Below the pieces are notes generated by a model, which ran no database searches, was not told the DNA's origin, and was given only the letters and a program-made list of their open reading frames with translations. The position numbers were made by a program, and so were the translations under genes. Shown piece by piece: positions 23,526-54,479 of a stretch of DNA of 64,000 nucleotides. Position 1 is the first letter of the stretch, and the number at the start of each line of letters is the position of its first letter. The stretch comes from Mucilaginibacter sp. Lineage in GTDB: Bacteria; Bacteroidota; Bacteroidia; Sphingobacteriales; Sphingobacteriaceae. The stretch covers positions 1-64,000 of the forward strand of contig NZ_JAQBOD010000058.1 in NCBI RefSeq assembly GCF_028288205.1, written 5' to 3'.

Positions 23526-23578
23526 TGTGATGATTTATTTAAATAAAAACTCTATTTTTATTTAAATAAATCATCACA
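23526..23578 (+). terminator. 24-bp perfect hairpin between genes (terminator and/or leader structure)
   Basis: TGTGATGATTTATTTAAATA plus four A (23526-23549) is exactly complementary to 23555-23578, with a 5-nt loop CTCTA. It begins 6 nt after one stop codon and ends 3 nt before the ATG at 23582. The A/T-rich arms could terminate the upstream gene. In a read-through transcript the hairpin would sit directly on the next ribosome entry site. Confidence 0.75.
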
Positions 23579-31935: not shown

Positions 31936-32331
31936 ATGTCAAAAAATATCCCGCTAATAATACTTTGTTCAATATTTTTAGTTTCTTGTAAACCCTCTGT
32001 AAAACCCGAAGACCTATATGGCAAATGGAAATATATAAGAGTACAAAACCCTAACGCTAATCCGCCGGATAGTGTAAATGCCATGACCTTAAGAGAACAG
32101 GCGCCATACATTCAATTCACTATAAAAGATAGTTTATTGATATTTTGGGATGGCAAAGTATTATCGCATGGTACTTTCAGGATGGACGGTCGCAATATCA
32201 TAGTAAAAGAAATTTTAGCTGATGGAAAGACAAGGGAATTTCCATTTTATGTGGAAGAGCTGACCGATAAACGATTAATATTTTCGACCAAAGGAACGGA
32301 CGGATCTGAAGTTACAGCAGTTAAACAGTAG
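31936..32331 (+). CDS. Small lipoprotein, lipocalin-like
   Basis: A 131-residue lipoprotein with a lipobox (FLVSC, Cys18). The mature part begins PEDLYGKWKYI and continues with alternating strands (YIQFTIKDSLLIFWDGKVLSHGTF, IIVKEILADG, REFPFYVEEL, LIFSTKG), the layout of small lipocalin/DUF-type beta-barrel lipoproteins of Bacteroidota. Probably outer-membrane or periplasmic; ligand unknown. The gene ends 25 bp before the left inverted repeat of the PIN cassette, so the insertion did not disrupt it. Confidence 0.65.
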   Translation: MSKNIPLIILCSIFLVSCKPSVKPEDLYGKWKYIRVQNPNANPPDSVNAMTLREQAPYIQFTIKDSLLIFWDGKVLSHGTFRMDGRNIIVKEILADGKTREFPFYVEELTDKRLIFSTKGTDGSEVTAVKQ

Positions 32332-32408
32332 GCAGTTTTTATAATTTTTCTTTTTGATGGTTCTTCGTCACTTTTGGTGGTGCTGAAATATGACAATACA
32401 ATTAATGG

Positions 32409-32813
32409 TTATAAAAAATGAATATTTAAAGAGGTATGGGGCTGGATGCGTTTAAAGTCTTTATAATTGCAAGTGTACAGGTCGGAACAATATTGTTCGG
32501 CAATAGCCGTATGCAGACAATCGTTAAAGTTTTTGTAGCCGATAACCGCCGCTAATCCCATCGCCCGGGTAAATTCAGAACTGCCATACCCAACAGGCAG
32601 GGATGATACTAAAGCGCCCAGTTTCGAGGTAATAAATGCAGTAGGCTGGTTCAGTTTGGCTAACACGAATCCTATTTCCTGTATGCTTAACCATGATATT
32701 AAAAACCGGTTACTGCTATTAATTTCGTCAATCATATCGATCACTTTTAAGTGCAGGTTGAAATTTTGATTGACCAATGAATGAACTAATACGTCGGTAT
32801 CAATATAATCCAT
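32409..32813 (-). CDS. PIN-domain toxin (VapC-like)
   Basis: A 134-residue PIN-domain protein starting at ATG 32813 (MDYIDTDVLVHSLVNQ), 4 nt after the antitoxin stop. It carries the expected acidic residues: Asp5/Asp7 in strand 1 (IDTDV), a Glu in SIQEIGFVLAK, an Asp in NFNDCLHTAIAEQ, and an Asp in CNYKDFKRI. PIN nucleases coordinate metal ions and cut RNA; VapC-type members are toxins neutralised by a neighbouring antitoxin. The full acidic set suggests it is active. Confidence 0.8.
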   Translation of the reverse strand: MDYIDTDVLVHSLVNQNFNLHLKVIDMIDEINSSNRFLISWLSIQEIGFVLAKLNQPTAFITSKLGALVSSLPVGYGSSEFTRAMGLAAVIGYKNFNDCLHTAIAEQYCSDLYTCNYKDFKRIQPHTSLNIHFL

Positions 32814-32817
32814 ATCA

Positions 32818-33069
32818 TTACTGATCAGGATACTGAGATTTATCAATAAGGGCGCGAATATCTACATCCGGGGATATGACAGGGGCGTTCGTACGACTTT
32901 CCCTAATCATTTCAGCTAATTGATGATTATCCTTAGCATAGTGCTTTTGATCTTTCGGTTTCACAGACTTGATTGTAATTTCAACCTCTTGGCCTGCAAA
33001 CAGGGTTTTCAGGGACTTCAAAAAAGCCATACTAATCTCTTGTGCCTTTAATCTGTAGGTTGTTTGCAT
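32818..33069 (-). CDS. Putative antitoxin of the PIN toxin
   Basis: An 83-residue protein from ATG 33069 (MQTTYRLKAQEISMAFLKSL), chosen over upstream ATGs because a TATCTTTG promoter box lies 5 nt ahead of it and the longer N-terminus would be an unlikely hydrophobic stretch. The N-terminal half resembles small strand-helix antitoxins (GQEVEITIKSV), and the C-terminal half is polar and probably disordered until bound to toxin. No HTH is obvious. Its stop is 4 nt before the PIN toxin start, the usual coupled antitoxin-toxin order. Confidence 0.65.
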   Translation of the reverse strand: MQTTYRLKAQEISMAFLKSLKTLFAGQEVEITIKSVKPKDQKHYAKDNHQLAEMIRESRTNAPVISPDVDIRALIDKSQYPDQ

Positions 33070-33074
33070 AATAA

Positions 33075-33105
33075 CAAAGATAATTAAAAAATAATACCAC
33101 CAAAA
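33075..33105 (-). promoter_or_regulatory. Promoter of the PIN cassette
   Basis: On the minus strand TTTTG (33105-33101, inside the right inverted repeat) and TATCTTTG (33082-33075) are 18 nt apart, followed 5 nt later by the antitoxin ATG. Confidence 0.55.
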
Positions 33106-33211
33106 GTGACGAAGAACCATTATAAGTGAAAAATTGCAGTTTTTTAAAAAAATAAAAATAAAAAGGTGATAGTTTCCCATAATTTTATACATATCTATAA
33201 AAAGGACATTT

Positions 33212-33748
33212 ATGCCAGGTATCAGCAACCAAAATCATATAGCCGAAAAGCGGCAAGAGCTTTTCACCGGGCTTTATAAGCAGGCCTTCCCGGTTGTGGC
33301 TAAATACATCAGCCGTATGGGTGGCTCGTTTGATGAAGCTAAGGACGTTTTTCAGGACGCGTTGATTATTTATTATGAAAAAGCAATAGCCGCGCAAACC
33401 GCATTAAATAATGACACCGCTTATTTGGTGGGCACAGCTAAGTACTTGTGGATAAAGCGATATAAAGAGAACAATCAAAATATCCCTTTGGATAATATTG
33501 ATTGTTCGGTAGATGAGGACGAATATTTGTCAAGCAACCGCCTGATGCGCTTTTTAGAAACTGCGGGTAAAAAGTGCATGGAACTTTTAAAAGGGTTTTA
33601 TTACGATAAGCAATCCTTAACAGAATTGGCGAATGAGTTTGGCTACTCGGGCGTACGTTCGGCCACCGTACAGAAGTATAAATGTTTGGAAAAAGTTAGA
33701 GAGACCATTAAAGAAAAAGCATTAACGTATGATGACTTCATGGAATGA
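33212..33748 (+). CDS. ECF-type RNA polymerase sigma factor
   Basis: A 178-residue sigma-70-family protein: region 2 at ~20-90 (YKQAFPVVAKYISRMGG, DEAKDVFQDALIIYYEK) and a region 4 HTH at ~125-170 (SLTELANEFGYSGVRSATVQKYKCLEKVR). Short length and lack of region 3 fit the extracytoplasmic-function group. Such factors redirect RNA polymerase to stress genes and are usually held by an anti-sigma encoded next door. Here the next ORF overlaps by 20 nt and encodes a small soluble protein, followed by a ClpP paralog. No FecR-type anti-sigma is present. Confidence 0.88.
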   Translation: MPGISNQNHIAEKRQELFTGLYKQAFPVVAKYISRMGGSFDEAKDVFQDALIIYYEKAIAAQTALNNDTAYLVGTAKYLWIKRYKENNQNIPLDNIDCSVDEDEYLSSNRLMRFLETAGKKCMELLKGFYYDKQSLTELANEFGYSGVRSATVQKYKCLEKVRETIKEKALTYDDFME

Positions 33749-53432: not shown

Positions 53433-53673
53433 CGTCATTGCGAGGAACGAAGACAACCGACCGTAGGGAGCTCATTAATGCCTTTTAAAAACAATTTATA
53501 ATATTAATAATCTCTACGTAGGACATTCAAACAAGAGTTTGCCGTTTTGAGCAGGGCCTTGAATAACATTTTCACCACTGATTAGCGAGTGCAGAGATTG
53601 CTTCGTTCCTCGCAATGACGCGCGGTTTGTTATTTATAACCTCGCTGTCTGTAATGTTTGAAATAATCCATCC
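53433..53673. repeat. Inverted-repeat element, copy 1 of the repeat island
   Basis: Begins CGTCATTGCGAGGAACGAAG (53433-53452), which returns as exact complement at 53601-53620, followed by a tail to 53673. Its first 85 bp are identical to 54230-54314, and its last ~75 bp are near-identical to 54405-54479. The CGTCATTGCGAGGA core belongs to a family of palindromic repeats seen in many bacteria. No ORF. Confidence 0.85.
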
Positions 53674-54229: not shown

Positions 54230-54479
54230 CGTCATTGCGAGGAACGAAGACAACCGACCGTAGGGAGCTCATTAATGCCTTTTAAAAACAATTTATAATA
54301 TTAATAATCTCTACATAAGCTAATCAGTTATGAAGTATGTTTTATTTAAGCAGGGCTCCTATTTCTATTCCAACAATACGTTTTGTTGATTGTCCTACGT
54401 AGAGATTGCTTCGTTCCTCGCAATGACGCGGTTTGTTATTTATAACCTCGCTATCCGTAATGTTTGAAATGATCCATCC
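54230..54479. repeat. Inverted-repeat element, copy 2 of the repeat island
   Basis: CGTCATTGCGAGGAACGAAG (54230-54249) is complementary to 54409-54428. It shares 85 identical bp with copy 1 at its left and ~75 near-identical bp at its right, while the centre differs. Confidence 0.85.

Follow-up and report, generated by a model that had tools for sequence, protein, structure and literature searches.

In the stretch of Mucilaginibacter sp. DNA analysed here (contig NZ_JAQBOD010000058.1, positions 1 to 64,000; hereafter the window), a small antitoxin-like gene and the gene of a PIN-domain toxin-like protein are enclosed by two 25-bp inverted arms with no transposase between them, which raises the question of what the arms are and how this toxin–antitoxin (TA) pair came to its present place. 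We consider it probable, at about 0.7, that we are dealing with a mobile insertion cassette (MIC) that has no transposase, ends of the ISL3 type, and a VapBC-like passenger. The cassette, 760–764 bp in length, comprises the following features:

32357–32381, plus strand: left arm, an ISL3-type terminal inverted repeat reading GG... from 32359, flanking AT
32409–32813, minus strand: PIN-domain toxin-like protein of 134 amino acids (aa), Pfam PF01850 with 24.0 bits against a cut-off of 23.6
32818–33069, minus strand: antitoxin-like protein of 83 aa, encoded directly upstream of the toxin gene and found beside the toxin in homologous loci
33075–33082, minus strand: TATCTTTG, a TAnnTTTG-type −7 box for the pair, located in the cassette but not in the arm
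33096–33120, minus strand: right arm, an ISL3-type terminal inverted repeat with its ...CC end at 33118, flanking AT

The left arm, ATGGTTCTTCGTCACTTTTGGTGGT, and the right arm are exact reverse complements over all 25 bp, as an earlier note on this DNA, made from the letters alone, had described for a coupled antitoxin–PIN gene pair. When a 19-base core of the arm was searched with up to three mismatches, the window contained two matches, both exact, against 0.03 expected, and none of 100 shuffles reached two. The distances of 26–27 nt between genes and arms given in the same note agree with our measurements: 27 nt separate the toxin stop from the left arm, and 26 nt the antitoxin ATG from the right one. 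The two open reading frames (ORFs), both on the minus strand, are separated by 4 nt, and apart from them the interior of the cassette contains no ORF of 60 aa or longer. No RNA families or terminators were found at the arms, and the folding of three flanking stretches (z of 1.34, −1.34, and 1.11) was little better than that of shuffles.

The arms are identical to the ends of a complete insertion sequence (IS) of the ISL3 family, the kind of element that had been proposed as a check on the cassette. In a Porphyromonadaceae metagenome-assembled genome (L023), a 1,823-bp IS bears the complete 25-bp sequence at either end, in the same inverted layout; its sole long ORF encodes a 550-aa protein that scores 285 bits with the NCBIfam model transpos_ISL3 (cut-off 180) and also passes Pfam DDE_Tnp_ISL3. 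The exact 22-bp end GGTTCTTCGTCACTTTTGGTGG was present in 15 stretches of a collection of 84,980 species, all of them presumably Bacteroidota, judging from the record titles, and in none of the viral contigs searched. ISL3-transposase homology was detected in the fetched DNA of nine of these stretches, two of which (L025 and L029) represent opposite ends of a single 1,714-bp element. The fetched DNA of the remaining six gave no such homology; the ends in L028 and L034 lie at a contig edge, and L032 carries a 161-bp pair of ends.

Related ends were also found closer to the window. A genome of the same genus, G065, carries a 2,224-bp ISL3 element (L035, 587–2810) with near-identical ends, and the genome of the window itself contains a 140-bp element without ORFs (G000, contig C59:10015–10154; L018/L039), the ends of which are two mismatches away from the arm. 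At up to two mismatches, the arm was matched in 4 of 120 genus genomes and a reversed control pattern in none; given this rarity, the idea that the arms are unrelated intergenic repeats occurring everywhere, which the earlier note had named as a threat to its own proposal, was rejected.

Several side observations concern elements with such ends. Between the ends of the G065 element, the opposite strand carries an additional 155-aa helix-turn-helix (HTH) ORF. The 140-bp element has 23-bp perfect ends of the same ISL3 type and is a relative resembling a miniature inverted-repeat transposable element (MITE). In Chitinophaga silvisoli (L110, 239–4669), a 4,431-bp element with ISL3-type ends contains an ISL3-like transposase ORF and an ATPase-like ORF, together with two ORFs resembling pieces of an IS21-type transposase (labels read from the translations); it is probably a nested insertion.

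The site occupied by the cassette lies between two genes on the plus strand:

31936–32331, plus strand: lipoprotein-like gene left of the cassette, intact, 131 aa; the label is that of the earlier note, and Pfam Lipocalin_4 matches below threshold only
33212–33748, plus strand: sigma-70-region-2-like gene right of the cassette, intact, 178 aa; Pfam Sigma70_r2 with 20 bits, below the cut-off of 24

Both genes align over their full length with their counterparts in a sister species (G120) and nearly over their full length with those of other close relatives, and the description of the lipoprotein and extracytoplasmic function (ECF) sigma flanks as intact is thus confirmed. The sigma region was searched in 149 genus genomes, of which 118 matched, and the 20 loci closest to the window were compared; 17 of the 20 were readable, with the lipoprotein-like gene also within the fetched stretch. 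The cassette is present in two of the 17, those of the window genome and G120, while the other 15 lack the pair, and tblastn for the toxin or the antitoxin gave no match in these 15 loci. Empty sites between the lipoprotein and sigma genes, for which the earlier note suggested looking, are therefore found in 15 of 17 readable loci, and the pair is not a constant resident of the site without arm-matched boundaries. In 10 of the 15, the gap between the two genes is 60–88 nt long; the other five contain other material, with gaps of about 144, 215, 280, 625, and 742 nt. Since 15 of 17 loci lack the pair and five have other gap material, the gap is best read as a permissive spot and the cassette as a derived insertion. 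Directly beyond the arms, no clean alignment of the flanks with the nearest empty site (G129, L044) is obtained, which obscures the exact target.

In these flanks beyond the arms (window 32338–32356 and 33121–33142, and the same place in G120, L037), a further inverted word common to both sides was noticed. It is 11 bp long in G120 (TGTAATTTTTC/GAAAAATTACA; reached by 6 of 3,000 shuffles) and 8 bp long in the window; the loop of an AT-rich hairpin may be where the cassette lies.

G120 carries the same insertion at the same site, so the insertion predates the split of the window species and its sister. The arms of G120 have two and one mismatches to the IS end. With gaps left out, the identity between G120 and the window is 93.8% for the cassette and 89.4% and 92.2% for the flanks. 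The dN/dS ratios of the two passengers (0.019/0.216, about 0.09, for the toxin and 0.031/0.18, about 0.17, for the antitoxin; comparable to 0.036/0.323 for the sigma gene and 0.056/0.413 for the lipoprotein-like gene) indicate that the TA genes have been under purifying selection since this split, while in one of the two species the arms have drifted. A count of three changes on one branch against none on the other is too small to prove that constraint on the arms was relaxed.

All eight aligned members match the PIN domain (PF01850) at E 0.01 or better, the window protein lying barely above the Pfam cut-off, and residues D5, D7, E46, D98, and D119 are invariant in the eight sequences. In PIN domains, such acidic residues are catalytic. 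The antitoxin matched no family in Pfam or NCBIfam, a recognised VapB family included. A single-sequence structure model of the toxin was poor (mean pLDDT, the predicted local distance difference test, of 54.6). The toxin profile had no relatives among solved structures at E 0.01, and three matches of the antitoxin profile to solved structures (E 0.077 to 0.85) were regarded as chance. Defence-system models gave no match, and in PHROGs the toxin had only weak matches, of unknown function. In VapBC-type type II TA pairs, as in the cassette, a small antitoxin gene stands just upstream of a PIN-domain gene, here 4 nt apart; the difference lies in the antitoxin, which has no Pfam or NCBIfam family. 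With its PIN toxin and conserved acidic residues, the pair fits a predicted VapBC-like type II TA system, and the coupling of the two genes noted earlier holds. The toxin would be a ribonuclease and the antitoxin would block it.

Of 301 family genomes, 11 gave relatives of the antitoxin (E 0.001), and relatives of the toxin came from 10 of 400 order genomes (E 1e-12) and 2 of 395 class genomes (E 1e-10), the own genome being included in each count; the three samples overlap and together yield 11 other genomes beyond G120. One of them, G257, showed the antitoxin only, and in G196 and G122 a stop lies within the antitoxin match. No toxin relatives were present in plasmid, phage, and viral collections, and carriage by plasmids, phages, or viruses was rejected on this result and on the absence of the 22-bp end from viral contigs.

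One relative bears on whether the cassette exists elsewhere with the same boundaries. G250, which belongs to another genus, has a TA pair about 80% identical to that of the window, with no lipoprotein-like or sigma homologue in the fetched 4.5 kb surrounding it. On the toxin side, homology breaks off precisely at ATGG, where the arm has its outer edge, and the sequence there has 6 mismatches in 22 positions to the arm. On the antitoxin side, the promoter remains near-identical as far as the inner edge of the right arm, beyond which the sequences diverge; there is no recognisable arm (best match with 11 mismatches in 22), and the score on this side, reached by none of 5,000 shuffles, is owed to the promoter stretch rather than to the arm. 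A match equal to the toxin-side arm occurs once in 127,958 window positions outside the arms, and about 0.007 such matches would be expected in 944 anchored positions (16 sides, 9 loci), the background being the window count only; a second set of loci contained the G250 copy itself (L114) and true IS ends. Mononucleotide shuffles of the G250 flanks reached the toxin-side match in 4 of 5,000 cases. As a candidate for the other copies with the same boundaries sought in the earlier note, G250 shares the toxin-side edge, with a degraded arm, and lacks a recognisable arm on the other side. The G250 locus would represent a second, decayed copy of the cassette in another genus, and, from these comparisons, there is moderate evidence that the cassette may have moved as a unit at least twice.

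Several results weigh against interpretation of the segment as a cassette mobilised by an ISL3 transposase. Such a transposase was found in neither of the two carrier genomes, both of which are drafts (67 and about 170 contigs), and no second copy of the cassette was found in the own genome, also as a draft. Among the 11 other genomes with relatives of the pair, an arm-like end beside the pair is missing in 10, G250 alone having one, on one side; moreover, the gapped alignment score of its toxin-side non-coding flank is weak and was reached by 191 of 5,000 shuffles. An 8-bp target duplication is usual for the ISL3 family. None flanks the cassette, where 4 of 8 positions agree, nor did any of 10 arm-paired elements show an exact one, the best being 6 of 8 at the full IS of L023; this count excludes three further pairs that were spurious, their arms having 8 mismatches. 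As to the transposase, a search with PF01610 gave no match in the own genome and matches in 18 of 149 genus genomes, G120 not among them; repeated ISs are often lost from draft assemblies.

Because no ISL3 transposase was found in the carrier drafts, no second copy was found in the own genome, and no target duplication is visible, current mobility is not supported. What holds of the minimal mobile TA cassette envisaged in the earlier note is a unit bounded by transposon ends that would need a transposase in trans. As an alternative, the same note had proposed that the segment is excised when its two arms recombine. With inverted repeats, however, homologous recombination leads to inversion of the segment and not to its removal, and excision was rejected on this topology.

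The segment could be the residue of a complete ISL3 IS, a transporter IS with the TA pair as its passenger, from which an internal deletion removed the transposase; a mobile unit of the TA genes only would then never have existed. The ends have the sequence found in a full ISL3 IS, and the HTH ORF of the G065 element suggests that extra genes are tolerated within such elements; however, the TA pair fills the cassette from edge to edge, leaving 26–27 nt on either side and no other ORF of at least 60 aa, and the G250 pair appears at another locus with the same outer boundary on the toxin side. We regard such a residue as unlikely. A chance meeting, in which two unrelated short ISL3-derived repeats inserted on either side of a resident TA pair, could draw on the existence of ISL3-type elements of 120–161 bp without ORFs. 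It is nevertheless very improbable, since each arm corresponds to one end only, correctly oriented towards the other, instead of to a complete element, both arms have the same sequence, the pair is absent from 15 of the 17 readable loci, and none of the 17 has the TA pair at the site without arms.

The arms could instead serve the TA operon as a regulatory or attenuator repeat, an operator rather than transposon ends. Promoters of Bacteroidota have a consensus with a TAnnTTTG −7 box, and the right arm contains a −33-like TTTG 18 nt before the TATCTTTG box, which agrees with the earlier claim of a −33 element in this arm. The element is not conserved: in G120, the arm has TCTG in place of TTTG and the spacing to the box is 29 nt. 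The box itself occurs also in G120 and G250, and, as TATATTTG, in G021, a homologue without arms. The operator idea fails this comparative test because G120 has neither the TTTG nor the original spacing, while the box is kept without arms, and it was rejected along with the suggestion that the arm ties movement to expression. There are homologous TA pairs without arms, and the 25-bp sequence occurs as ISL3 IS ends in other Bacteroidota; a regulatory origin of the arms, already contradicted by the L023 IS, is left with hardly any credit.

We return to the transposase-less cassette, for which the following course of events is probable. The segment has two terminal inverted repeats of an ISL3-family IS known from Bacteroidota, with the antitoxin–PIN toxin operon in the place of a transposase. 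An ISL3-family transposase supplied in trans would once have bound both of them and brought the segment to its site next to the lipoprotein-like gene and the sigma gene at a time when the window species and its sister had yet to split. The TA genes have since been kept by selection, mobility being probably lost or dormant. One could further hypothesise, as a possible and on balance doubtful extension, that the TA pair is a minimal selfish unit which replaces the transposase between IS ends, travels as a hitch-hiker with related ISL3 elements, and, once landed, persists through addiction and not through re-transposition, in at least two genera of the family (that of the window and its sister, and that of G250).

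MICs have IS-type inverted repeats around a passenger gene and no transposase, so that a transposase is needed in trans; IS231-MIC231 of Bacillus cereus (De Palmenaer et al. 2004) is reportedly an example. The cassette has IS-like terminal repeats (25 of 25 bp in common with L023), a passenger without a transposase, and empty sites (15 of 17). It resembles IS231-MIC231 in its IS-type repeats around a passenger, in having no internal transposase, and in its predicted dependence on a transposase in trans, and differs in its ISL3-type ends, its TA passenger, and its Bacteroidota host, as well as in being a single copy with no visible target duplication and no partner transposase in the draft genome. 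With ISL3-family ISs it shares identical 25-bp ends (L023), whereas it contains a TA operon and no transposase; classification as an ISL3 IS was rejected for lack of the transposase, and also of the 8-bp duplication (4 of 8). MITEs have no coding capacity. In passages of PMC4133298, they are given a size of about 30–300 bp, and the cassette, with 760–764 bp and two conserved genes, was rejected as a MITE. MICs appear as a named class of elements in passages of PMC4133298, PMC6542083, and PMC7157771, and TA pairs carried in Tn3-family transposons in those of the last (PMC7157771). Like the latter, the cassette is a TA pair on a transposable element; unlike them, it lacks a transposase or resolvase and has ISL3-type ends. 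No ISL3-ended cassette with a TA pair is described in the titles, abstract openings, and passages of the open-licence papers that the literature searches listed.

The window also contains other repeats. Two copies of a 190–200 bp element, at 53433–53622 and 54230–54430, have the ends CGTCATTGCGAGGAACGAAG and CTTCGTTCCTCGCAATGACG; their first ~85 and last ~30 bases are near-identical, and their middles differ. In a relative (L050), a variant of the CGTCATTGCGAGGAACGAAG/CTTCGTTCCTCGCAATGACG ends lies within the lipoprotein–sigma gap. A long AT-rich palindrome (TGTGATGATTTATTTAAATAAAAA...) is located at 23526–23578, just upstream of an ATG.

These observations address the question of how TA pairs spread through chromosomes without an obvious vehicle. 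The cassette would be one concrete vehicle of this kind, with defined ends, a candidate transposase in other Bacteroidota, unoccupied sites in relatives, and a copy in the sister species by which the insertion can be dated. The apparent conservation of the passenger while the ends drift in one lineage is as expected if selection keeps the TA pair and not its mobility.
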